Shown: in pieces, positions 11,987 through 40,891 of the stretch
Position numbering within the stretch: position 1 is the first letter of the stretch
How the letters are laid out: every line of letters begins with the position of its first letter
DNA from: Streptomyces alboflavus
GTDB lineage: Bacteria; Actinomycetota; Actinomycetes; Streptomycetales; Streptomycetaceae
Direction of reading: 5' to 3'
DNA: 51,691 nucleotides
Assembly (NCBI RefSeq): GCF_000716675.1
Contig: NZ_JNXT01000061.1
Coordinates: 1-51,691, forward strand
Translations under genes and position numbers: made by a program
Notes under the pieces: generated by a model
What the model saw: only the letters and a program-made list of their open reading frames with translations
Database searches by the model: none
What the model was told of the DNA's origin: nothing

Positions 11987-12274
11987 TCAGGCGGGCGTGT
12001 GGGGCTTCGGGGCTGTCGGGGTGCGATGCGGGCGGAGCGCCCTGCAGGGCCCTGAGAGCCGTTCTGCGGGCCGCAGTTCGCGAGGGACGCTCGCGCGGCG
12101 TTCGGCCGGGAGACGGGCGCTCAGGGCTCTTCTCGCGGCCCGTACGCCTCGACTGAACCGCCACGCGAGCGTCTGGCGTGCGCGGCGGGGCATCGGGGGC
12201 AGGTGCGCCCAGTGCGCCAGCGGAAGACCGGCCGCCGCGACGACGAGGACGACGAACGCCACCACGAAGATCAC
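11987..12274 (-). CDS. small membrane-anchored basic protein
   Basis: 95 residues from GTG 12274. One N-terminal hydrophobic helix (VIFVVAFVVLVVAAAGLPLA) is followed by a long Arg/Pro-rich tail. The start overlaps the stop of the four-HTH protein, so the two are co-translated. It could hold a partner at the membrane; this is inference. Confidence 0.6.
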   Translation of the reverse strand: MIFVVAFVVLVVAAAGLPLAHWAHLPPMPRRARQTLAWRFSRGVRAARRALSARLPAERRASVPRELRPAERLSGPCRALRPHRTPTAPKPHTPA

Positions 12275-13191
12275 GCGGCATCCCGCCCCTCCACCACACC
12301 CGGGCCGAGCAGTCCCGCCTGCCAGCCCAGCGCCACCGCATGCGCCCGCGTCCGCGCACCGAGCGCCCGCAGGAGGCGCCGCACGTGGGTGCGCACCGTC
12401 GGGACCGACACCCCCAGCTCGGCGGCGATCTGGCAGTCCGGCAGGCCCCGCCGCACACCGTCGAGGACCTGGACCAGCCGCCGCGGCAGAGGCTGCACAT
12501 CGCGTGGCTCCGGCGCGAGCCTGGCGAGGGCCCCGGTCTGGTAGCCGTACTCGACGAGGCGCTGGTGGTACGGGCTGCTGAGCCGCGCTACTGCGGCGGC
12601 GCCACGGATGTGGGCGCGGACGGTGTGAGGGCTGAGGAACAGGGCGCGCGCGATCTGTTCCTCGGCGTGGCCGCGTGCGAGTCCGGCGACGACGCGGCGC
12701 TGCTGCGCGGTGAACCGACTGGTGTCGGGCGGCGGGGCCGGCGGTTCGGGCGCCGGGGCGGGCGGTACGGCGGTGAAGATGCCCTGCTGCCAGGCGATCG
12801 CGATGGCGTGGGCCTGGTTGCAGGCGCCGAGGCGCCGGTAGAGGTGGCGCCGGTAGTCGCGGGCGATGCCGGGGGTGACGCCCAGTTCGGCGGCGGTCTC
12901 AGGTACGGACAGTCCGCGGGTGATGGCGTCGAGGGTGTGGGCGAGGAGCGGCGGTAGGTCGGTGGGGGGCTGGTGTGTGGGGGGTGGGGTGAGGTGGCCG
13001 TGGAGGTAGGCGTGGTGGACGAGGCGGGCATGGCGGGAGCGGTGGATGCCGGTGCGGGTGGCGGCGCGGTGGATGCGGGAGCGGATGGCGTCGGTGGGGA
13101 GGTGGAGGGTGGTGGCGATGTGGTGGGTGTTGTGGCCGTGGGCGAGTTCGGTGATGACTGCGAGTTGTCGGCGGGTGAAGGTGGCGGTCAT
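12271..13191 (-). CDS. DNA-binding protein with four tandem LuxR/GerE-type HTH units
   Basis: 306 residues made almost only of four repeats of a LuxR-like HTH, at about 5-65, 84-139, 160-222 and 238-295. Each has the pattern 'T-x-R/A ... G ... I/EIA-x-x-L-x-(V/L)-(S/T)-x-x-(A/T)(I/V)R-x-(H/Y)-(I/R)', for example AAELGVTPGIARDYRRHLYR and AAELGVSVPTVRTHVRRLLR. Pro-rich linkers separate units 1-2 and 2-3. There is no receiver, autoinducer or ATPase domain. Ordinary LuxR proteins have one such HTH, so this could bind arrays of sites. ATG 13191 overlaps the upstream stop; GTGA couples it to the small membrane protein. Confidence 0.75.
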   Translation of the reverse strand: MTATFTRRQLAVITELAHGHNTHHIATTLHLPTDAIRSRIHRAATRTGIHRSRHARLVHHAYLHGHLTPPPTHQPPTDLPPLLAHTLDAITRGLSVPETAAELGVTPGIARDYRRHLYRRLGACNQAHAIAIAWQQGIFTAVPPAPAPEPPAPPPDTSRFTAQQRRVVAGLARGHAEEQIARALFLSPHTVRAHIRGAAAVARLSSPYHQRLVEYGYQTGALARLAPEPRDVQPLPRRLVQVLDGVRRGLPDCQIAAELGVSVPTVRTHVRRLLRALGARTRAHAVALGWQAGLLGPGVVEGRDAA

Positions 13192-14102
13192 GACGGCCCC
13201 GGGGCGGGCTCGGTGACGCCCGGGCAGGTCGTGGGTGCCTCGCTGCTGATCCGGTCCGTGAGCGGCAGCTCGAAGGGCGGCCGTCCGCAGCAGGGGGTGA
13301 GGCCGGAGCCGTCGGGAGGGCAGCCGTGCACGACGTCGGGTCGCTGCGTACCGCCCTGCGGGATGAGCACGTCGACCCCGCACTCGTCGCAGATCCCGCC
13401 GTCGGGCAGGTCGTCGGACTCCAGCGGGGTCAGGCCGGGTGTCCCGTCGCCGTGCTGGCGGCACAGGTAGGCGCGGGGGCGGGTGGGGTGCTCGTAGGCG
13501 ACGACCTCCGGGCTGAACACCTCCGGCTCGGCGGCCTGCTGCGCCTCGTCGGCCATGCGGCGCAGCTTCGCGAGGGCGGCATCGTCGGCGTCGGTGAACC
13601 CGTCGTCGGACACCATGCGGTCGAAAGCCAGGTCCAGGGCGAAGGTGAGGAACTGCCGCTCCTCGGCGGACAGTACGGCGGCCCGGGCGGTGGGCGCGGG
13701 GAGGACGGCCAGCACCGCGTCGGCGCGGCTGTAGGCGTTCTTCGTGACGGTGGCCGAGCGCCGGTACGCGGCGTACTTCGGGTCGTTGTTGCCTTCGGCC
13801 CACTGCATCAGGGCTTCGGCGATGCGGTCGCGGAGGCCGGCGTCGGCGGGCGCAGACAGCGCGGCCGCGGGCTGCTGCTCGGCGTCGAACGACATGACCG
13901 AGTCGAGCAGCTCGCGGACTGCGGGCGTCTCCTCGTCGGCGGTGAGCTCGTCGGCGTGGGAGTCCAGGGTGCTGGCGGCGAGCCAGGCCCCGGGGCCGTC
14001 AGCGGTACGCCAGCGGGCGGCGATGACATCGGCGTGGTGGGCGAGGAGCGCGGCGAGCTCGCCGCGGCTGAGGGTGAGGCGGTCGGGCGGCGGTGTGTGC
14101 AT
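13188..14102 (-). CDS. hypothetical protein with C-terminal Cys cluster
   Basis: 304 residues from the second of two ATGs (14102), which has GGAG at 6-base spacing; the ATG at 14108 has none. The N-terminal half is helical (LSRGELAALLAHHADVIAAR). A second helical block follows (AVLSAEERQFLTFALDLAFD). The C-terminus carries LCRQHGDG, ICDECGVDVLIP and TPCCGRPPFELP, consistent with zinc binding. It lies upstream of and coupled to the four-HTH gene. Confidence 0.65.
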   Translation of the reverse strand: MHTPPPDRLTLSRGELAALLAHHADVIAARWRTADGPGAWLAASTLDSHADELTADEETPAVRELLDSVMSFDAEQQPAAALSAPADAGLRDRIAEALMQWAEGNNDPKYAAYRRSATVTKNAYSRADAVLAVLPAPTARAAVLSAEERQFLTFALDLAFDRMVSDDGFTDADDAALAKLRRMADEAQQAAEPEVFSPEVVAYEHPTRPRAYLCRQHGDGTPGLTPLESDDLPDGGICDECGVDVLIPQGGTQRPDVVHGCPPDGSGLTPCCGRPPFELPLTDRISSEAPTTCPGVTEPAPGPS

Positions 14103-16186: not shown

Positions 16187-16812
16187 TGGGTGGCTCCGGT
16201 GTCGTCGGTGAAAGGGCTGCCGAGGTCCGGCATCGTGAAGGCGCTGCCGAGTCCGGAGGTGGCCTCGGCAAAGCGGAGTTGCCTGTCGACGGCTCGGTAC
16301 ACGGGCTGCTTTTCGAGGCCGTTGCGGCACGCGCGGCAGCGCCACGGGCGACGCAGGGTGATCCACTGGACGCGGCGGCAGGCGGGGCACGTCACGGAGT
16401 AGGCGGACGGCCCGTACGGGGTTTCCCAGTTGGCGTATCCGCAGGTCGGCCGGTGACCGCGCGCGCCGGGGAGTGGGCCGAGGGAGGTGCGGCCGAGGAT
16501 GACGAGTTCACCGCCGGGCCAGCGGCAGGTGCATTCTCGCGCGCAGTGGCAGGCGCGGGTCTGGGCGAGTTCGGCGGTCTTCTCGGCGCGGGGGATGCCG
16601 GGGCCCTTGACCTCGATCCAGGTGCCGAGTTCGGGCAGCCAGAAGTCGGGGATGTACACGGTGCCGGAGGGCAGGGTGATGGTCTCGGGCTCGTATTGCC
16701 AGGTGGTGCCGTTGGTGCTCAGGGTGTGGGCCCAGTCGGCTTCGAGGCGGGAGCGGAAGAGGGTGCCCGCGTACTGGGTGGGGACGGCGTGGATGGTGGG
16801 TTCGTCGGTCAC
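16183..16812 (-). CDS. PD-(D/E)XK nuclease with zinc-ribbon tail
   Basis: 209 residues. Residues 18-70 carry a PD-(D/E)XK core: FRSRLEADWA (Glu24), YEPETITL, PDFWLPE (Asp56) and WIEVKG (Glu67, Lys69). Cys-rich segments follow (CHCARECTCRW, TCPACRRV, CRACRNG), which probably bind zinc and DNA. GTG 16812 overlaps the stop of the helicase-loader gene. In phages such enzymes process replication or recombination intermediates; here it sits in the replication module. Confidence 0.8.
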   Translation of the reverse strand: MTDEPTIHAVPTQYAGTLFRSRLEADWAHTLSTNGTTWQYEPETITLPSGTVYIPDFWLPELGTWIEVKGPGIPRAEKTAELAQTRACHCARECTCRWPGGELVILGRTSLGPLPGARGHRPTCGYANWETPYGPSAYSVTCPACRRVQWITLRRPWRCRACRNGLEKQPVYRAVDRQLRFAEATSGLGSAFTMPDLGSPFTDDTGATQ

Positions 16813-17543
16813 GAGACGCTCCGGAGTCCGCGCCTGCGGTCGGGGCCGTCGAAGCCGACGATGGTCGCGGTCTGCGCGAGGCGGGAAGCAAGCCGGTCGC
16901 CGAGACGGGTCACCAGGTCGGGTGTGGGTGCGCCGGTCTGGATGGGAAGGTTGGTGGTGATCAGCAGTGGAAGTGACTCGTTGTAGCGGTAGTTGACGAT
17001 GCGGGTGGTGGTCTCCTCGGTGAACTCGGAGAGCTTCTCGGTGCCGAGGTCGTCGAGGAGGAGCAGTGGGATCTGGCGCAGCCGCTTCAGCTCGTGCTCG
17101 CTGCCCTTGTCGGATCCGCCGGGGCGGAGCAGGCCGTAGAGGTCGGGGGCGGTGGTTGCGATCATCTCGAAGCGCTTCGGCCCGGCTTCCGCGATCCGGC
17201 GGAGCGCCCCGTACGCCTGGTGGGTTTTGCCGGTGCCGATGTTCCCGTGCAGGACGAGGATCCCGGCGTCACGAATGTCTGCGGCGGCGCGGTCGGCCCA
17301 TGCTCGGATGACGGGGTGCTCGGCGGTCGCCTGCCGGTAGCGGTAGGGGACGGCGTTCTGCCAGCGGGCGAGGGCGAACTCGGCGCGCTGACGACGGTGG
17401 TACTCCGGGTGGCCGGGCTCGTCCGGGGTCGGGGCGTCGTCGATGGGGCCAGCCGTCACGCGGGGTGCGTGTTCGGCGATTCCGGCCATGAGCCGGGCGA
17501 GCATCGTGGGTCGGTTCTCGGCGAGGCTTTCGGGGTCGTTCAT
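16809..17543 (-). CDS. DnaC/IstB-like AAA+ helicase loader
   Basis: 244 residues. Walker A GNIGTGKT at 100-107 and Walker B LLLLDDLG at 160-167 are intact. A later TTNLP motif (sensor I-like) and a C-terminal RLASRL arginine region match the DnaC/IstB family. The protein should load the host DnaB helicase at the element's origin. ATG 17543 has AGGAG upstream and lies 9 bases after the initiator-like gene. Initiator followed by loader recalls the lambda O-P order. Confidence 0.85.
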   Translation of the reverse strand: MNDPESLAENRPTMLARLMAGIAEHAPRVTAGPIDDAPTPDEPGHPEYHRRQRAEFALARWQNAVPYRYRQATAEHPVIRAWADRAAADIRDAGILVLHGNIGTGKTHQAYGALRRIAEAGPKRFEMIATTAPDLYGLLRPGGSDKGSEHELKRLRQIPLLLLDDLGTEKLSEFTEETTTRIVNYRYNESLPLLITTNLPIQTGAPTPDLVTRLGDRLASRLAQTATIVGFDGPDRRRGLRSVS

Positions 17544-17552
17544 GCGGGGCTC

Positions 17553-18440
17553 CTAGAAGTGGCCGAGGTCGGAGGCGCGGTCTTCGGGGGTCGGCTCGCG
17601 GTACGGCTGGTAGCCGCCGGACACGGCACGCAGTGGTGGGCGTTCGGTGTCGGGGGCGGGCATGGGCGGGAGTTCGCTCCAGCCGCGCAGGAAGTACTTG
17701 GCGGAGTCGACGGGTTCGGGGGCTCGTCCGGCGGCCTTGATGGCGTGGGCGACGAGGGCGGGGACGCCGGTCTTCTCGATGAGGGCGAGGAGGGGGAACC
17801 ACTGGTTGCCCTTGAAGGGCCAGCGGACGATGACGCCTGCGGCGGTGAGGCTGTCGATGAGGGGGCGTGCGGCTTCGGGGATGCCGTAGTCGAGCGGCGC
17901 GGGGGGCTGGCTCTCCTGCTTGCTAGCTGAGGGGGTAGTTACTGAGGGGACTGAGGGGAAGGGGTCCGGGGTTTCCGGACCCTTTCCATGTGGTTCCCGG
18001 ACCCTTTCGGGGTCGTTCCCGGACCCTTTCTCGCTCATTGGGTCCGAGGTTTCCGGACCCTTTTCCTCGGATTGGGTCCGGGGTTCCTGGACGCTTTGTC
18101 CGGGGTTCCCGGACCCTTTCTCGTCGATAGGGTCCGGAGAACCTGGACCCTTTGCGGACCTGAGGGCGGGGATTCGGTAGACCGCGCGGCGCCCGCGATG
18201 CCCCGCCGAGACACCTTCGAGGGCGCCCTTCTTCCGCAGCGCCTTGATCACTTCGTACCGGCTGGAGCGTCCGGGCAGGCGCATCCTGTGGGCGATCGCC
18301 GGGTCGTCCTCGATGCCGGGCCAGCACTCGCGGGTGGAGTCGTTGGCGTTCTCGGCGAGGACGGCCAGGGCGTATCGCTCGCGCCAGGTCAGCGTCTCGG
18401 GCGCGTGATCGAGCACCTCGACGAACAGGCGGATTCCCAC
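17553..18440 (-). CDS. replication-initiator-like winged-helix protein with iterons inside its gene
   Basis: 295 residues from GTG 18440. Residues 1-90 form a winged-helix domain (LTWRERYALAVLAENAND, RYEVIKALRKKGALEGVSAG, RRAVYRI). Residues about 95-160 are a low-complexity linker written by seven DNA repeats. Residues 185-270 form a second helical domain (PLIDSLTAAGVIVRWPF, FPLLALIEKTGVPALVAHAI) like a primosomal domain. The DnaC-like gene lies immediately downstream. Domain order and position resemble the phage O-protein type of initiator; homology to a specific family is not proved. The gene is divergent from the regulator at 18601. Confidence 0.75.
   Translation of the reverse strand: MGIRLFVEVLDHAPETLTWRERYALAVLAENANDSTRECWPGIEDDPAIAHRMRLPGRSSRYEVIKALRKKGALEGVSAGHRGRRAVYRIPALRSAKGPGSPDPIDEKGSGNPGQSVQEPRTQSEEKGPETSDPMSEKGSGNDPERVREPHGKGPETPDPFPSVPSVTTPSASKQESQPPAPLDYGIPEAARPLIDSLTAAGVIVRWPFKGNQWFPLLALIEKTGVPALVAHAIKAAGRAPEPVDSAKYFLRGWSELPPMPAPDTERPPLRAVSGGYQPYREPTPEDRASDLGHF
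17962..18154. repeat. seven iteron-like repeats, candidate replication origin
   Basis: A 15-bp unit (consensus TTCCCGGACCCTTTC) starts at 17972, 17994, 18016, 18050, 18084, 18106 and 18140. The spacing is exactly 22, 22, 34, 34, 22 and 34 bases. Four units (17972, 18050, 18084, 18140) are preceded by an inverted GGGTCCG, giving dyads such as GGGTCCG-7 bases-CGGACCC at 17962-17982 and 18040-18060. Spacings are not multiples of 3, so the units are read in all three frames (KGSGN, KGPET, ERVREP). The conservation is therefore at DNA level. Confidence 0.8.
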
Positions 18441-18477: not shown

Positions 18478-18589
18478 GTGAACTCCGCGAGTTCACGGAT
18501 CCCTGCCGCACACCCATGATGCCACATTCATGTGGCCACTGTGATGTTGCGTGGTGCGGTGGACTTTGATGAGGCCACATCGGTGTGGG
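18478..18589. promoter_or_regulatory. divergent operator region between initiator-like gene and HTH regulator
   Basis: Three dyads lie in 112 bases: GTGAACTC-CGC-GAGTTCAC at 18478-18496 (perfect), GCCACAT-TC-ATGTGGC at 18521-18536 (perfect), and an imperfect second copy GCCACAT-CG-GTGTGGG at 18574-18589. They sit between the starts at 18440 and 18601. A plausible reading is that the HTH protein controls replication genes through the GCCACAT sites. Confidence 0.6.
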
Positions 18590-18887: not shown

Positions 18888-20090
18888 TCAGGCCTCGTCG
18901 TCCTGCACGTACGGCACGGCCGCCTCGGGCCGGACCGCCCGCCACAGATGCAGGCCCGTCGACCGCCCGTCGAGCATCAGGAACATGCAGGCGCGCACCG
19001 CGCGGTCCTCGATCTGCTGAGCAGCACGCGCGAACGCCCCCCGGTCCGGGCCAAGGTGGGCGATCGCCTCGTACGCTTCGACGACCTGCTTGCCGCGCTC
19101 ACGGGCCTGGGTTTCCAGGCGGGTGGCGACCGACCTCACCCACTGGTCGAACTCGTCGGGGACGGCGTCCAGGAGCGCGTCGAGCGGAGCAGGACCGGTA
19201 CCGAGGGCGGTGATCTCGGCGACCGCGCAGCCAAGGGCTTTGGCCACGAGCTTGGGCGGCTGGTCGGCGTACTTCTGCATGCCGAGCATCCGCCAGATGT
19301 CCCGCTCGGTGATGCCGGTGAGGACCTTGTGGAGGCGGACGTACTCGGCCAGCTTGGCCTTGGCGCGGAGCCCGTTGGCGTAGCGGATGACGTAGCCCTC
19401 GGTGGAGATGCCGCTCGTGGGGGTGCCGTCGGGGCGGGTGTTGGCCTCGGTGAGCTTCAGCAGCTCGGGCAGCGGCGGGGCGGGCCAGGAGCGGACGACC
19501 GAGCCGAGCCCCTGCCACTCGTCGGACGCGGCGTCGAGCGGGACCTCGGTGCCGTCCCTGTCGAACGCTCCGAGGAGGACGAGGTCTTCGCGCTGCCCGT
19601 AGTCGACGACGATCCGGTTGGCCGGGTACAGGATCTCGGCGAGGTACGTGGTGTCTGGCCACAGCGCGCCGGTGTCGCGGCTGTCGAGCCGCCTCTGCGC
19701 CCACTGGGCCTGCTCGCTGGTGAACGAGCCCTTCGATGCGGCGTGCCAGCGGCCGGAGTACCAGAAGACGATGCCGAGGGAGCCGTCGACCTTGTCGAAC
19801 ACCTCGAACGGTTCGTCGGGGAGCGGTGGCGCGTACGTGTAGCCCTGCTGGTGCTCGGCGACGTTGAAGAACTTCGGGAACGGCCAGGCGATGATCTCGT
19901 CGGTGATGTTGTTGGCGATGAGGCCGCGGCATTGGAGCGTGGCGGTCGTCCAGGCGCGTTCGTACTGGGCTGTGCGCGTGTAGGTGTAGATCGACAGGGG
20001 TAGCTCAGGGTGTTCCTTGCGGCTGATGTGCCCGGCGTCGAGGGCGGCATGGAGTTCGTCGGCGGGGATGAGGTCGGTGAGGTAGGGCAT
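18888..20090 (-). CDS. T4 Rnl1-type RNA ligase
   Basis: 400 residues from ATG 20090. The nucleotidyltransferase motif I KVDGS puts the AMP-accepting lysine at residue 100. Other ligase signatures follow in order: CRGLI upstream, a motif III region near WHAASKGSF, motif IV EGYVIRY and motif V KAKLAEYVRLHK. The C-terminal ~100 residues are helical, as in Rnl1. Such ligases seal RNA, classically tRNA cut by host anti-phage nucleases. No polynucleotide kinase/phosphatase partner is visible in the window. Its ATG overlaps the stop of the HTH gene before it (TGATG). Confidence 0.85.
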   Translation of the reverse strand: MPYLTDLIPADELHAALDAGHISRKEHPELPLSIYTYTRTAQYERAWTTATLQCRGLIANNITDEIIAWPFPKFFNVAEHQQGYTYAPPLPDEPFEVFDKVDGSLGIVFWYSGRWHAASKGSFTSEQAQWAQRRLDSRDTGALWPDTTYLAEILYPANRIVVDYGQREDLVLLGAFDRDGTEVPLDAASDEWQGLGSVVRSWPAPPLPELLKLTEANTRPDGTPTSGISTEGYVIRYANGLRAKAKLAEYVRLHKVLTGITERDIWRMLGMQKYADQPPKLVAKALGCAVAEITALGTGPAPLDALLDAVPDEFDQWVRSVATRLETQARERGKQVVEAYEAIAHLGPDRGAFARAAQQIEDRAVRACMFLMLDGRSTGLHLWRAVRPEAAVPYVQDDEA

Positions 20091-32615: not shown

Positions 32616-33647
32616 TCACCGCGAGTGGTCCGCCAGTGACAGCAGCAGGTGTGCCGACTCCGGGCGCAGGTGGTCGGAGTGGGCGCCTGCGGGGCCGCGG
32701 CCGTGGGTGAAGACCTCGCTTGCGTCGACGTTGACGAAGTGGTGGTCGAGGGTGGTGTGCGGGTACGGCTCGGTGGTGTCCCGCATCCGGATGCCCGAGA
32801 CGGGTGCGGGAGCCGTTCCGATGCCCGCGTAGCCGATGCCCGCCCGTTTCTCGGCGCGCAGGTGCCAGAAGCCCGTGGCGCGGTCGTGCTGGGAGTACGT
32901 GGCCACGACCGGCCCGTGCAAGGGCGCCCCCGCGAGCGCGGTGAACGTGGCCGCGAAGGCGTCACGCGCCGCCGCCATCTGCAACAGCAGCATCGAGTCG
33001 ACGGTGAACGGCCGCCCCGGCGGCGCGGGCATGCTCCACCCCAGCGTCCCGCCCGGCGGCGCCGCCGCCCACTGCACCGCCTCGCACAGCAGCCGGCAGC
33101 CGAACGAATGCCCCACGAGGTGCAGGTACTGGCCGCCGCGGTTGGCGAGGACGGGCGCGGCGTACGGGTCGCCCCTGTGGGTGTCCAGGTATCCCAGGAG
33201 CTGTGCGATCACGCGGGCCGCGTGCCCCTCGGTGCCCATGGCATGGGCGCGGTCGCGGATGCGGCGGTAGCCGCCGAGGGAGGGCAGCGAGCGCGACGGC
33301 CAGCGGACCAGGACCGGCCACGGGGCGAAGCCACGGTGTGCGGGGGTGGCGCGCCGGAGCTGCGGATACAGCTCCGCCTGTTCGTCCCGCTGCCGCTCCA
33401 CCAGGTCCATCAGCGTCCGCAGCGCCCCCAGCGCCGACGCCTGCGAGGTCTGCCACCCGTGGACGTAGACGACGATGTCCGTCGCCCAGGGCGGGGGCGT
33501 CAGGCGTTGTGCGAGGTACGCGTCCAGGCCTGGCGGCGGCACGGGGCGCGGACCGTCGCGGGTGGGCCGCAGGGGCCAGCCGGTCGCGTCCAGGTCGACG
33601 ACGGCGACACGGCCGTCCCCGTACTGCTCTGTGGAGTCCTCGTTCAC
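32616..33647 (-). CDS. alpha/beta hydrolase of a CHAT/STAND operon
   Basis: 343 residues from GTG 33647. DIVVYVHGWQTSQ supplies the oxyanion-hole strand, LVGHSFGCR the nucleophile Ser181, TYSQHDRATG an Asp (255), and GAHSDHLRPE a His (323 or 326). The catalytic triad of an esterase/lipase therefore appears complete. There is no signal peptide. The GTG overlaps the CHAT protease stop by 4 bases (GTGA), so the two are made together. In a conflict-system reading it would be the effector acting on lipids or other esters; the substrate is unknown. Confidence 0.8.
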   Translation of the reverse strand: MNEDSTEQYGDGRVAVVDLDATGWPLRPTRDGPRPVPPPGLDAYLAQRLTPPPWATDIVVYVHGWQTSQASALGALRTLMDLVERQRDEQAELYPQLRRATPAHRGFAPWPVLVRWPSRSLPSLGGYRRIRDRAHAMGTEGHAARVIAQLLGYLDTHRGDPYAAPVLANRGGQYLHLVGHSFGCRLLCEAVQWAAAPPGGTLGWSMPAPPGRPFTVDSMLLLQMAAARDAFAATFTALAGAPLHGPVVATYSQHDRATGFWHLRAEKRAGIGYAGIGTAPAPVSGIRMRDTTEPYPHTTLDHHFVNVDASEVFTHGRGPAGAHSDHLRPESAHLLLSLADHSR

Positions 33648-34942
33648 GCTGTGCGCTCCAAGCGGCTGTCCATGCCGCTGTGCAGGGCGTACGCGAAGCC
33701 CAGCGGGTTGTGGCAGGTGTCGGCGAAGTGGCGGGACAGGGCGTGGGCGATGTCGCCCGCCGTCTCCCGTCCGGTCAGGTAGCGGGTGACGAAGGCGAGC
33801 GCGTACTCGGCGGCGAAGCGCTGGGGCATCTCGATCTGGGGGCCGAGGATGCCGCTCGCGCCCGCGTCGAACAGGGCCCTGCCGAGGTAGGCCAGGTCGG
33901 CGTTGCCGGGGAGCCCCGCGTAGCAGGCGTTGAGCAGGACGAAGGGGCGGAACGGCACGCAGGAGTGCGGGGGCGGGCGGTGGGCGCGCAGGCTGTGCGC
34001 GTCGATGGCCCGCTGGTCGGTCAACTTCAGGACGAGGTAAGGGGGTTCGTCGCCGGACGTGGTGAAGTGGCCGTGGCACCAGAAGTACATCAGCTGCTCG
34101 TCGAGGAGGGTGTCGCCGAGGGCGCGTTCCAGCTGGTCGCGGGTGGTGCGCTCGACGAGGTCGCCGCCGTCGGCGAGGGCGGTGGCGACGTCGGCGGCCC
34201 GGGTCAGGCCCTGTGCGTCGACGCCCGTGTCGTGGTTGAGGCTGACCGTGGGGGCGGAGCGGGGCGGCGGGTCGCGGTCGTCGGCGACGCGGGCGTAGGC
34301 GTTGCCGCCGGTGTGTTCGAGCTGGTGGCGGTAGCCGAGGAAGCGGTCGAAGAGGCTCTCGGGGCCCGGCCCCGGGTCCTCGTCCGGCGTGGCGGGCAGA
34401 CACAGCATCGGCCACGGCAGGTACAGGTCCGAGTGGAAGCGGATCCGCAGCGGCCGGTCGCTGCCGAGGACGTCCGTCAGGAAGCCGCGGAAGAGCTTCA
34501 GCTCCTCGGACTCGCCGCCGAGGAGGACGTCGTAGAGCAACTGGGTGCCGTCCAGGGCCAGCCGGGCGAGCGCGGCCCGCAGTTCGGCCGATGGCCGGTC
34601 GGTCAGGTCGATGAGGGAGGCGTACGGGAGCGGGGTGGTCCCGGGGGCCGGGCGGCCCGTCGCGTCCAGCGGCTGGAGCGCCACGAACTCGTCCTTCCAC
34701 ACCTGCCGCAGCCGCGCCGCCACCGAACGGACCTCGCGGGGGCGGACGTTGAGCGTCACCGTGTGCTCGGAGCCGCTGAGGGAAGGGACCTCCGGTCCGT
34801 ACATCCGGGCCTGCACGGGCTCGTCCTCGCGGCGCGCGTCGAGGCCGACGACGACGTCCGGGTGGCGGATGACATGCCGGGGGAGCCGGGTGAAGCCGAG
34901 GCTGGGGTCGTGTGTGACGCGCGTCGGGAGTTCGTGGGCCAT
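33644..34942 (-). CDS. CHAT-domain cysteine protease
   Basis: 432 residues from ATG 34942. The C-terminal half (about 230-425) is a CHAT (caspase HetF-associated with TPR) domain: His290 in YFWCHGHFTT and Cys340 in VLLNACYAGLPG form the dyad, followed by GASGILGPQIEMP and FAAEYALAFVTRYL. The N-terminal ~200 residues are a less recognisable domain with LLYDVLLGGESEELKLFRGF. CHAT proteases act in several bacterial immunity systems by cleaving a partner after activation by a sensor. The gene is 5 bases after the TPR protein stop and overlaps the hydrolase start. Confidence 0.88.
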   Translation of the reverse strand: MAHELPTRVTHDPSLGFTRLPRHVIRHPDVVVGLDARREDEPVQARMYGPEVPSLSGSEHTVTLNVRPREVRSVAARLRQVWKDEFVALQPLDATGRPAPGTTPLPYASLIDLTDRPSAELRAALARLALDGTQLLYDVLLGGESEELKLFRGFLTDVLGSDRPLRIRFHSDLYLPWPMLCLPATPDEDPGPGPESLFDRFLGYRHQLEHTGGNAYARVADDRDPPPRSAPTVSLNHDTGVDAQGLTRAADVATALADGGDLVERTTRDQLERALGDTLLDEQLMYFWCHGHFTTSGDEPPYLVLKLTDQRAIDAHSLRAHRPPPHSCVPFRPFVLLNACYAGLPGNADLAYLGRALFDAGASGILGPQIEMPQRFAAEYALAFVTRYLTGRETAGDIAHALSRHFADTCHNPLGFAYALHSGMDSRLERTA

Positions 34943-37454: not shown

Positions 37455-40400
37455 TCAAGGCGTCGGCACCGGAACTCCCATGATCTCCCTGGCATGCCGG
37501 TCCGGCGTCATCCCCAACCGCCACGCCTGCCACCCCGCGTCCAGCTCGGCCCCGCGCTCCAGGAGCAGCAGATACGCCTCGACGTACTGGTCGAGCTTGC
37601 CGTCCCGCAACGGGTGGACGGCGCGGGCGAGTTGGACCAGCTCCTCCTGGGCGACCGCCGTGCCGATCTCCCAGCCGCCGGGGGAGGCGTAGGGCAGGAG
37701 CGTGGCGCGCAGGAAGTGGGCCCAGTCCTCGCCGCGGCGGTCGCCGTAGGAGGCGAAGAGGGCGATGGCCTCGTCGCAGAGGGAGAGCGCGGCCTGTGTG
37801 CGGGCGTTCCCCGCGTCGACGACGGCCAGCTCCAGGCACGTCCACCCCTCGCCGTGGGCGACGCCGATGCGCTGGAAGTCGGCGCGGGCGTCCATGAGGA
37901 GCTGGCGGGCGAAGCCGGAGTTGCGCAGGGATCCTGTCTGGGCGGCGCGCTGGTCGCGGGTGACGCGGGCGGAGTGGTGGCGGGCGCAGGCGAGGCCGTA
38001 GACGTCGCGCATGCGGGAGAACATGGTGCGGGCCCGCTCCAGGTCGCGGACGGCCTGTTCGAGGTTGCCGGTCTCCTCCAGGGCCTGGCCGAGGTAGTAC
38101 AGGGACCAGGCCTCGCCGCGGGCGTCCTCGTTGTCGCGGTGCCGGGAGACGGCCTGGCGCAGGCCGTCGACGGCGGGCGCCGGGTCGCCCGCGACCAGCC
38201 GGGCGCGGGAGAGCTGGGTGAGGGCCCAGGCCTCGCCGCGCGCGTCACGGGTGCTGCCGTACAGGTCGAGGGCGCGCCGCAGCTCCTCCTCCGCGCGCGG
38301 CACATCGCCCTTGCGCAGGCACACCTGGCCGAGCTGGAAGTGGGCCCAGGCCTCGCCGTGCACGGACTCGCTCTCGCGGTGCAGGACCAGGGCGGTGCGC
38401 AGCATGTCCTCGGCCTCGCCGAGGCGGGACCGGTCGCGTTCGACGGCGGCCAGGGCGTGCAGGGTCCAGGCGCGGTCGCCCGCGAGCTGCTCGGACACCT
38501 GGAGGTCCAGGGCCTCGCGCAGGCGGGCGGCGGCCTCGGACAGATTGCCCTGGTGGTGCAGGGTGATGCCGAGGGAGCCGAGCGCGCGGGCCGCGCCCGC
38601 GTCCTGGTGGGCCTCGAAGTACAGGTCGACGACGGACGACAGGGTGGAGCGTGCCTGGTCGAGGTCGCCGATCTGGCGGGCCGCGATGCCGGTGCGCCAC
38701 TGCACGCTGCGCTCCATCCGGCCCCGCCCCGCCGCGCCCCCGGCGGCCGTCCCGCCCTGCTCCAGCTTCTCCAGGGACTGCGCGAACTCGCTGATCTCGC
38801 CGAGGCGGTAGAGGTCGCCGCGCAGCAGGCAGTAGTCGCACAGGGCGCCGAGCAGATTGAGGACGGCCTGCGGGTCGACGCCCTCGGCGTGCCGCAGCGC
38901 CGCCGTGATGAAGCTGGACTCGTCGTCGAGCCAGCGCAGCGCGGAGTCCAAGGACGTGAAGCCGTGCTGCCCGAAGTGGTCGGCGCGGGTGGAGGTCTTG
39001 CCGTCGACGAGGCGGATCACGGAGTCGGCCAGCTCGCCGTAGCTGACGATGAGACGTTCCTGCGCGGCGGTGCGCTCGCCCGGCTCCTCCTCGTCCGCGA
39101 GCCTGGCCTGGGCGAAGGAGCGCACGAGGTCGTGCAGGCGGTAGCGGTCGCCGCGGACGTGGTCGACGAGGCCGGCGCGGGACAGGGCGGTGAGCTGGCG
39201 GCCCGCCTCGGCCTCGTCGGTGGCGAGCAGCGCGGCGGCCGCGGCCGCGCCGAGCGAGGCACGGCCCGCGAGCGCGAGGCGTCGCAGGAGGCGGCGCGCG
39301 GGCTCCGCCTGGTCGGCGTAGCGCAGCGAGAGGGCGCGCTCGACGGGGGCGAGGGGCCCGTACGCGGAGAGGTCGTTGACCAGCTCCAGCGGGGTGCGCG
39401 GCCCGAGCGAGGACCCGGCGGCGCGCAGCGCCAGCGGAAGCCCGCCGCACAGGTCCCGCACGGTCTCCAGGGACGCCGCGTCGTAGGGCCCGGTCAGCTC
39501 CTCCGCCGAGGTGCGCAGCAACTGCTCGGCGCCCGCCGCGTCCAGCTCCGCCACGGGCAGCTGGTGCACCCAGGCGGGCATGTCCTCGGGCAGGTCGAGG
39601 GGCTTGCGGGCGGTGACGAGGACGAGGCTGTCGGAGCGCTCGGGGATGAGGGTGCGCACCTGCTCCGGGTCGCAGGCGTCGTCGAGGACGACGACCACCT
39701 CAAGGCCCGTCAGATACTGGTGGTAGATCTCGCTGAGCCGTCTGACCTGCTGTTCCTGCGTGGAGCGCTCACGGAACAGGAGCTGTTCGCGGGGCGCGCC
39801 GAGGCGGTTGAGGAGGTGCAGGAGCGCGTCGCGGGTCGACAGGGGCGGGGTGTCGGGGCTCTCGCCGCGCAGATCCACCAGGCAGGCCCCGCGGAACTGG
39901 TCCTTCACGTCGTGTGCGGCCCGCACGGCGAGCGAGGAGCGGCCCGCGCCGGGCGCCCCGTGCAGCACGACCACCGTCGGCTTGGTCTGGGTGCTGGCGC
40001 GCGCCGCGTGCACCCACTGCGCGATCCGCCCCAGCTCGGCCCGCCGCCCCGCGAACGTGCCGCCCGGCTGCGGCAGTTGCGCGAAGGACTGCTCCAGGAC
40101 GGTACGCCGCCGGGCCGCCGCGCTCTTGTCGGTGCGGCGCAGCTGCGGCGCCGGCTTCTTCGGCCCGCCGCTGCCGCCGGTCACCCCGGCGCCGCTCGCG
40201 GCGTTGAAGACCCGCTGCTGGTCGAGGAACGGCCGGATCCCGCGCACCTCGAGGGCCGTCAGCCACTGGAGCCGCAACTGCTCGGGCCCGCCCGGCTGGC
40301 TCACCGCGCCCGCGTGCCGCTGCGCGGCGGGGACGTGCGACGCGGTCACCTTCACCACCGTCGCGGCGGCGCCCGCCACCGCGACCGCCGCGCCCGCGCC

Positions 40401-40721
40401 GAGGGCCGTGCCGCCGCCCGTGCCGAGCGCGAGGTCGGCGGCCGTGGCCGCGACGGCGGCGACGGCCACGACGAGCAGCGGCGTGCCCGCGCCCTCCTTC
40501 GCGTACCGCTGGCCGAAGGTGAGCTGTCCCGCCGCCGCCTCGTCCAGGGCCCGCGTGTACGCCTCGTACTCCTCCGCCGCCGTCTGCGCCATGGTGTCGA
40601 GCGCGCCGCGCGCCCGCGACAGGAGCACCCCGCCGTCCGTGCGCCCACCGGTGCGCCGCACCTCCTCCTCGACCGCCCGTGCCAACAGCCGCTCGGCTTC
40701 GGCCCGATGGCTGTCCCGCAT
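37455..40721 (-). CDS. membrane-anchored NB-ARC/STAND NTPase with TPR repeats
   Basis: 1088 residues from ATG 40721, chosen because GGAGGGGGAC lies just upstream. Two hydrophobic segments (about 80-98 and 104-124) should anchor the N-terminus. The NB-ARC domain has Walker A HGAPGAGRSS (255-263, with Arg261 where Lys is usual), Walker B VVVVLDDA (342-349), CGGLPLALR and RYRLHDLVRSFAQ (MHD-like). From about residue 560 to 1000 are TPR repeats carrying R-G-[ED]-[AD]-W signatures, partly shared with the downstream protein. There is no SARP or HTH domain as in AfsR. It fits an NLR-like sensor and is the first gene of the operon. Confidence 0.85.
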   Translation of the reverse strand: MRDSHRAEAERLLARAVEEEVRRTGGRTDGGVLLSRARGALDTMAQTAAEEYEAYTRALDEAAAGQLTFGQRYAKEGAGTPLLVVAVAAVAATAADLALGTGGGTALGAGAAVAVAGAAATVVKVTASHVPAAQRHAGAVSQPGGPEQLRLQWLTALEVRGIRPFLDQQRVFNAASGAGVTGGSGGPKKPAPQLRRTDKSAAARRRTVLEQSFAQLPQPGGTFAGRRAELGRIAQWVHAARASTQTKPTVVVLHGAPGAGRSSLAVRAAHDVKDQFRGACLVDLRGESPDTPPLSTRDALLHLLNRLGAPREQLLFRERSTQEQQVRRLSEIYHQYLTGLEVVVVLDDACDPEQVRTLIPERSDSLVLVTARKPLDLPEDMPAWVHQLPVAELDAAGAEQLLRTSAEELTGPYDAASLETVRDLCGGLPLALRAAGSSLGPRTPLELVNDLSAYGPLAPVERALSLRYADQAEPARRLLRRLALAGRASLGAAAAAALLATDEAEAGRQLTALSRAGLVDHVRGDRYRLHDLVRSFAQARLADEEEPGERTAAQERLIVSYGELADSVIRLVDGKTSTRADHFGQHGFTSLDSALRWLDDESSFITAALRHAEGVDPQAVLNLLGALCDYCLLRGDLYRLGEISEFAQSLEKLEQGGTAAGGAAGRGRMERSVQWRTGIAARQIGDLDQARSTLSSVVDLYFEAHQDAGAARALGSLGITLHHQGNLSEAAARLREALDLQVSEQLAGDRAWTLHALAAVERDRSRLGEAEDMLRTALVLHRESESVHGEAWAHFQLGQVCLRKGDVPRAEEELRRALDLYGSTRDARGEAWALTQLSRARLVAGDPAPAVDGLRQAVSRHRDNEDARGEAWSLYYLGQALEETGNLEQAVRDLERARTMFSRMRDVYGLACARHHSARVTRDQRAAQTGSLRNSGFARQLLMDARADFQRIGVAHGEGWTCLELAVVDAGNARTQAALSLCDEAIALFASYGDRRGEDWAHFLRATLLPYASPGGWEIGTAVAQEELVQLARAVHPLRDGKLDQYVEAYLLLLERGAELDAGWQAWRLGMTPDRHAREIMGVPVPTP

Positions 40722-40891
40722 GTGGTCCCCCTCCGAGAGCGGCACGTGCCGTCGACACGTGTCCGTGCGTGTGCCCCATGTAGGGATACGTCTGCCCCGT
40801 ACCTCTACATGTACGTGTCAGTGTCCTGCGTACGGGGCGTCGGCGCGAGGGAGTCGGCGGATCAGGGGCCGGTGTGCGCGAGGATGGGGCC
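40722..40891. promoter_or_regulatory. divergent promoter region with CACGTG palindromes
   Basis: Two perfect 10-bp palindromes, GGCACGTGCC (40741-40750) and GACACGTGTC (40754-40763), have centres 13 bases apart. A 12-of-14 inverted repeat (CATGTAGGGATACG at 40777-40790, CGTACCTCTACATG at 40798-40811) follows. They lie between the NB-ARC operon and the DUF255 gene. Confidence 0.55.

Follow-up and report, generated by a model that had tools for sequence, protein, structure and literature searches.

The window, that is, the whole 51,691-bp stretch of DNA that was analyzed, is one whole contig of a draft genome and has a GC content of 71.7%. Its left part contains early-phage genes (RecE-like, Erf-like, RuvC-like, and WhiB-like genes and genes for a polymerase exonuclease subunit and an RNA ligase) together with a partial integrase match at 785-1330, and beyond ~32.6 kb it contains CHAT, NB-ARC/TPR, and aminotransferase genes. 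The ends of the contig were compared and did not overlap, and so there is no sign of a circular element. A search for phrog_2, which we take to be the terminase large subunit, found no match in this contig. The strongest hit to phrog_2 in the genome (L184, G000:C54:1898-3364) lies close to the beginning of contig C54, contains two TGA stops in the matched stretch, and could come from the part of this prophage that is missing here or from a different one. The region most likely represents the early part of a prophage that is truncated at the end of the contig. Genes at 33644-34942 and 37455-40745, one with a CHAT domain and the other of the NB-ARC/TPR type, lie beside the prophage-like region, and the RNA-ligase gene (18888-20090; PF09511; phrog_562, 2.8e-55), which matches a family annotated as "RNA ligase and tail fiber protein attachment catalyst," is located ~0.4 kb upstream of the initiator gene described below.

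On the minus strand, a gene for a predicted replication initiator is followed by one for a helicase loader, and an array of dyads lies inside the coding sequence of the former:

17553..18440, minus strand: predicted replication initiator, 295 amino acids, GTG start at 18440
16809..17543, minus strand: DnaC/IstB-type helicase loader, 244 amino acids, next gene of the operon (PF01695, 2.7e-9)
17962..18153, minus strand: dyad array, seven units, predicted initiator-binding part of the origin
18130..18153, minus strand: dyad 1, first on the gene strand, gene position 288
18096..18119, minus strand: dyad 2, second arm decayed past CCGGAC, gene position 322
18074..18097, minus strand: dyad 3, 2 mismatches in the first arm, gene position 344
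18040..18063, minus strand: dyad 4, gene position 378
18006..18029, minus strand: dyad 5, weak second arm, gene position 412
17984..18007, minus strand: dyad 6, second arm unrecognizable, gene position 434
17962..17985, minus strand: dyad 7, gene position 456
17917..17961, minus strand: CCCCTCA-repeat tract directly 3' of the array, possible unwinding region

The predicted initiator, the loader, and the array

The reading frame of the initiator is open upstream of the GTG to an ATG at 18527. The protein matched phrog_391 ("replication initiation O-like," 1.7e-6), phrog_270 (7.9e-7), and phrog_30000 (1.4e-21), and its residues 38-88 matched a MarR-like helix-turn-helix among PDB sequences; a PDB fold search gave no match at an E value of ≤0.001, and a search against Pfam gave 0 families at an E value of ≤0.1. 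Among 39 relatives, 34 matched phrog_6643, 24 matched phrog_391, and 13 matched phrog_345, a family that is also matched by the N terminus of lambda O. On the basis of these family matches, the 295-residue protein is predicted to be a replication initiator belonging to phage replication-initiation families. An AlphaFold2 model divides it into a winged helix (approximately residues 1-90), a disordered linker, and a helical C-terminal domain (residues 189-258), and the stretch predicted to be disordered covers the dyad array. Because the linker is predicted to be disordered, its codons would be free to hold binding sites.

The sequence-only reading had placed a DnaC/IstB loader next to the initiator, and both the Pfam match and a match to phrog_50 ("DnaC-like helicase loader," 1.2e-30) support this assignment. 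The same loader family was found downstream of the initiator in 26 of 111 relatives. In ten relatives whose downstream proteins were chosen by hand rather than at random, the gene after the initiator encoded a DnaB-like helicase in two and matched phrog_8924, a family of unknown function, in the other eight (e.g., L009:4373-5104 and L014:4372-5061). Judged by its position, phrog_8924 is a candidate loader of a different family.

The array consists of seven 24-bp dyads, with the gene-strand sequence AAAGGGTCCGGNNNNNCCGGACCC and a second arm that is decayed in some of the units. The unit ends (17985, 18007, 18029, 18063, 18097, 18119, and 18153) reproduce exactly the steps of 22, 22, 34, 34, 22, and 34 bp that had been read from the letters. 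The same reading had given four of the units an inverted GGGTCCG partner; on the gene strand, three of these are perfect CCGGACCC arms and the other has a mismatch, and a fifth unit carries a degenerate partner, TTGTCCGG. Since partners are present in four units and in degenerate form in a fifth, the unit is best described as a dyad. The 16-mer unit GGTTYCCGGACCCTTT, allowing up to 3 mismatches, had 7 matches in the whole window (six plus-strand units and one minus-strand arm) whereas 100 shuffled sequences averaged 0.49 matches and gave at most 4; the seventh plus-strand unit has 4 mismatches. Eight copies of CGGACCCTTT are present in the 9.7-Mb genome, five of them within the array. The repeats are confirmed as real and beyond chance.

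The sequence directly 3' of the array was searched for an unwinding element. The codons of the CCCCTCA tract are constrained, with the same codon in 132 of 150 pairs among seven close relatives. No strong A+T-rich element was found in the window; next to the array, the 30-bp block that is richest in A+T (gene positions 491-520) reaches 43%, and so an element like that of lambda is not established here. Across 131 relatives, the mean A+T content at ~10-30 bp past the last dyad was 47%, compared with 33% in the surrounding 500 bp. The motif AGCAAGC, found at 17918-17924 (minus strand), is present no more than 90 bp beyond the array in 25 of the 131 relatives, which come from 9 of the 21 winged-helix clusters (codon-resampling mean, 5.8; maximum, 14; n = 500) and is often preceded by rare codons (TCAGCT). 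It is possible that AGCAAGC is a second, shared origin element. A search for DnaA-box-like sites gave 2 matches against a chance mean of 4, i.e., fewer than expected by chance.

Constraint on the repeats as DNA

The units of the array fall in frames 2, 0, 1, 2, 0, 1, and 2, so that all three reading frames are occupied, and the three peptides that had been predicted from this arrangement (KGSGN, KGPET, and ERVREP) are all present in the protein. The repeats were compared with those in synonymous-codon shuffles, in which codons were permuted among positions encoding the same amino acid, leaving protein and codon usage unchanged (n = 5000). The initiator gene contained 53 out-of-frame pairs of repeated 9-mers (shuffles: mean, 2.2; maximum, 16), 18 inverted pairs (mean, 3.5; maximum, 17), and 23 in-frame pairs (mean, 4.2; maximum, 24).

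Relatives were collected from phage records, genomes, and viral contigs, and 166 genes were collapsed at 95% identity and 90% coverage into 138 distinct genes, including that of the window. Four loci in which the gene is cut by a contig end (L048, L057, L077, and L121) and one with no tblastn match (L030) were left out, and one set of relatives comprised the best 80 of 169 loci. All 17 relatives from named genomes were from Streptomyces; among 150 relatives, 15 genomes were matched, one of which belongs to another genus of the same order. With 300 shuffles for each of the 138 genes, repeats exceeded the shuffles at a P value of ≤0.01 in 97 genes for the out-of-frame class, 110 for the in-frame class, 104 for the inverted class, and 132 for any class, and they were located at 30-60% of the gene length. 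Neighboring genes served as controls. The longest downstream open reading frames showed an out-of-frame excess in 5 cases and an excess of any class in 13 (n = 110), and the longest upstream ones did so in 2 and 6 cases (n = 83). Only 24 of 109 of the downstream frames contain a Walker A motif, which indicates that many are not true genes, and a second control was therefore made from 27 true loader genes; these gave an out-of-frame excess in 2 and an excess of any class in 3, compared with 22 and 27 for the 27 initiators from the same loci. The repeats thus persist in most relatives while the unit sequence and the linker protein change. The converse pattern, a conserved linker protein lacking DNA repeats, which the sequence-only reading had named as evidence against itself, is not what was found.

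Codon usage among seven close relatives, including the window, points in the same direction. Pairwise amino acid identity was higher in the winged-helix codons (0.807) than in the dyad codons (0.685), whereas identity at third positions was lower (0.640 versus 0.851). Identical residues were encoded by the same codon in 705 of 761 comparisons for the dyads, against 975 of 1525 for the winged-helix codons (column test, P ~ 1e-8); the contrast between dyad codons and the few inter-dyad codons was weaker (P = 0.03, 11 columns). Selection on the dyad codons as DNA is visible in these comparisons. It had been proposed that selection acts on DNA and not on protein, and the first half of that proposal stands. 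The second does not, as the linker protein is itself partly conserved in close relatives, and so selection on the DNA acts in addition to selection on the protein and not instead of it.

These data also bear on whether a linker protein that is itself repetitive and rich in Gly and Pro could have produced the DNA repeats. The excess of in-frame repeats in the relatives would be expected from such an origin, as would the steps of some relatives that are multiples of three (e.g., 36, 33, 36, and 33), but the units of the window occupy all three frames, shuffles that preserve the protein fail to yield the repeats, and synonymous sites are better conserved in the dyads than elsewhere. We regard a protein-level origin as extremely improbable and reject it, as it is contradicted for the window by both the frame use and the synonymous shuffles.

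Dyad types and spacing

The dyads differ widely in sequence among relatives, from GGGTCCGG..CCGGACCC in the window to TCAGTGTCC types, GGTCCGGAATCCGGACC, CCGGGCCGGAATCCGGCCC, TGTGCCCCGGATTCCGGGGCACA, GAGGGTCAGAATCTGACCCTC, and others elsewhere. The unit finder always outputs its best set, so that the recovery of at least four units in 131 of 138 genes is a description and not a test. Five of these 131 genes (L010, L172, L175, L177, and L180) were removed manually, as their units resembled low-complexity matches, leaving 126. Among the 126 genes, dyad similarity correlated with similarity of the winged helix (r = 0.82; after controlling for the C-terminal domain, partial r = 0.80; Mantel P = 0.001) but not with that of the C-terminal domain (partial r = -0.09). 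The mean dyad similarity was 0.81 for pairs that share a winged helix and differ in the C-terminal domain (472 pairs), compared with 0.39 for pairs with the same C-terminal domain and different winged helices (151 pairs) and 0.36 for pairs unlike in both domains (3546 pairs). This correlation fits recognition of the dyads by the winged helix. The dyads adjoin the winged-helix codons, however, and so linkage could contribute to their co-inheritance or could alone explain it. Varied dyads, each tied to its own winged helix, would be natural material from which to read initiator-origin specificity.

The spacing of the units follows a ladder. Of 555 adjacent steps of up to 50 bp in the 131 genes, 484 fell in bands of 20-25, 31-38, and 42-48 bp, and when each distinct step was counted a single time within any one winged-helix cluster (100 steps from 21 clusters), the bands had means of 22.4, 34.2, and 45.1. 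The best period across the 21 clusters was 11.3 bp, with a score of 0.68, compared with a score of 0.19 at 10.5 bp and a 99.9% null level of 0.37. The bootstrap range was 11.2-11.4 bp with steps of up to 80 bp, some of the longer of which are sums over an undetected unit. With four clusters the best period was 11.35 bp at a score of 0.44, under the 99.9% null level of 0.48, and with three clusters it was again 11.35 bp, at a score of 0.33 under a null level of 0.55. The ladder does not accommodate steps of 17 bp, seen 35 times, or of 30 bp, seen 22 times, nor does it fit the 12-bp steps of the P1312 array. The final step of the array was 22 or 23 bp in 93 of 131 genes. A step of 11.3 rather than 10.5 bp suggests that the DNA may be underwound or wrapped in a right-handed sense in the complex; the ladder amounts to a geometric claim on how initiators strain DNA.

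A proposed in-gene replication origin, its alternatives, and known systems

We consider it likely that the seven repeats are dyad sites within a gene for a predicted lambda-O-type initiator, that they would be bound by dimers of the protein that the gene encodes, and that the gene is its own replication origin. Most relatives keep their arrays despite changes in the letters of the sites, which makes it likely that the gene is also where copying of the phage DNA begins. In such an origin, each dyad would bind one initiator dimer through the winged helix, and the phased dimers would assemble into one nucleoprotein complex that could strain and open the adjoining 3' tract. The C-terminal domain of the initiator might then recruit the loader encoded by the next gene, which would load the replicative helicase of the host onto the opened strand.

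The lambda-type origin proposed from the sequence is supported computationally by the initiator family, by the adjoining loader, and by an array position like that in lambda O. In gene O with ori-lambda (NC_001416), the dyad iterons likewise lie in the middle of the gene and the helicase-loader gene is next; the array occupies 32-54% of the gene in the window and 39-48% in lambda. As a positive control, lambda O gave a repeat statistic of P = 0.001, and lambda P was negative. Lambda O is described as having two domains with a flexible linker and as binding with one dimer per iteron (PMC6022878, PMC7466680). Several features differ. Lambda has four iterons with steps of 20, 24, and 23 bp, whereas the window has seven with steps of 22 and 34 bp; the dyad sequences are unrelated; the lambda loader is P-like (phrog_109) and that of the window is DnaC-like; and the strong AT-rich element of lambda has no strong counterpart here. 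The shared family phrog_391 is matched by the N-terminal half of the window initiator but by the C-terminal half of lambda O, and a comparison with hhalign of family profile A4 with lambda O gave a probability of 0.3%; lambda O entered this comparison as one sequence, which makes a weak probe.

Two other roles for the array have to be weighed against that of an origin. It could be an operator or roadblock at which the winged-helix protein binds its own gene and controls transcription of the replication operon, with replication starting elsewhere. The fold is common to many repressors (matches to MarR, Fur, and LexA), and a homolog in Arthrobacter phage Laroye is annotated as a "transcriptional repressor." Five to eight phased dyads deep in a coding region, far from the gene start, would be an unusual operator, and the protein family is one of replication initiation, with adjoining loader or helicase genes and the same layout in lambda O. 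We find an operator with no origin function quite improbable; the two roles are not mutually exclusive.

The array could also be a partition or incompatibility site, resembling parS or plasmid iterons, that is separate from the replication start. Repeats beside repA serve as extra parS sites in some mycobacteriophages (PMC7157519), and the open reading frame at 12271-13803 has a weak ParB-like match (phrog_1033, 4.2e-5). That frame matches sigma-factor families better (phrog_3282, 4.7e-19), no partition ATPase was found among the scanned proteins, which represent part of the open reading frames, and the dyad type tracks the winged helix of the initiator itself. A partition role is, in our judgment, highly improbable.

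Taking the in-gene origin as the preferred reading, the nearest counterparts are in Streptomyces phages. SV1, Picard, SoJo, ToastyFinz, and Eklok encode homologous initiators with dyad arrays in the linker DNA, and in some records of this group the initiator is annotated as a "replication initiation protein" or "RepA-like replication initiator." Comparison of the window-type profile (A1) with that of the SV1/Picard-type initiators (A2) gave a probability of 99.2% (E value, 9e-20) over 250 columns, and a tblastn match to the SV1/Picard type extended over the C-terminal domain. These phages have other dyad sequences and steps (37, 30, 35, 46, and 23 bp in Eklok), the out-of-frame repeats of SV1, Picard, and SoJo do not significantly exceed the shuffles, and the gene after the initiator in SV1 and SoJo is phrog_8924. 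Among plasmids, the origin of the staphylococcal plasmid pSK41 is reported to be centrally located in rep (PMC5703833). pSK41 is not a phage; its type is defined by a RepA_N Pfam domain, to which the window initiator gave no match, and in the fold comparison with the solved N-terminal domains of plasmid initiators, the VIA list contains ties with unrelated winged helices. In Rep_3 iteron plasmids, the iterons lie outside rep, whereas the array here is inside the gene and the initiator gave no match to a Rep_3 domain. By description, the extrachromosomal mycobacteriophage RepA prophages (Miko, Rachaly, and Jeeves) are also similar, with an actinophage initiator that has an N-terminal helix-turn-helix; the report on them suggests an origin just upstream of or within repA and found no repeated motif in the regions that it examined (PMC7157519).

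The kind of origin is thus already known from lambda. Three features look new: a set that spans the actinophages, dyad types that change together with the winged helix, and the ladder of 11.3 bp. The titles listed in literature searches, which covered a minority of subscription journals, gave no account of dyad arrays or origins inside Streptomyces phage initiator genes, and the best reading of the array is as one member of an apparently undescribed, actinophage-wide set of lambda-type, self-encoded phage origins. A more far-reaching proposal, which we consider rather unlikely, is that the self-encoded origins of actinophages form a large, undescribed set, with initiator dimers assembling on an 11.3-bp ladder, that this non-B-DNA step means that the array DNA is underwound or wrapped in a right-handed sense (approximately one turn over the 168 bp from first to last unit here), that stored strain replaces the AT-rich unwinding element in these GC-rich genomes, and that the winged helix and its array form one cassette moving between different C-terminal helicase-recruiting domains. 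A rule that could be tried elsewhere is to seek phased dyads in the linker codons of initiators.

Some relatives depart from the phased array. The Raleigh-type initiators (L010:3398-4348, L011:3401-4351, and L023:1108-2064) have the common C-terminal domain, another N terminus, and no phased array within the gene or directly upstream of it, and those of Raleigh and Darolandstone are annotated as "mucin-2." Raleigh gp39 showed no out-of-frame (P = 0.46) or inverted (P = 0.07) excess, with an in-frame P value of 0.012. A search of the upstream DNA in Raleigh and Darolandstone, and of the whole surroundings of the gene in L023, yielded no array above the shuffles. In L026, L027, L028, and L029, palindromes stand in place of the phased array in the initiator linker: a TAATACTCCC(N4 or so)GGGAGTATTA palindrome is present in all four and AGCAAGCTAGCTTGCT in three.

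Beyond Streptomyces, four homologs from Arthrobacter and Thermobifida phages, chosen by hand rather than at random, all showed an out-of-frame excess (P ≤ 0.006), and none of three neighboring genes used as controls reached 0.01 in any class. Laroye gp88 ("transcriptional repressor"), P1312_087, and Ottawa 56 ("hypothetical protein"), corresponding to L187:2018-2965, L188:1439-2848, and the L190:2081-2986 entry, match replication-initiation families, carry in-gene repeat arrays, and are probably initiators under other names. Genes labeled "transcriptional repressor" or "hypothetical protein" can match initiation families and carry such repeats.
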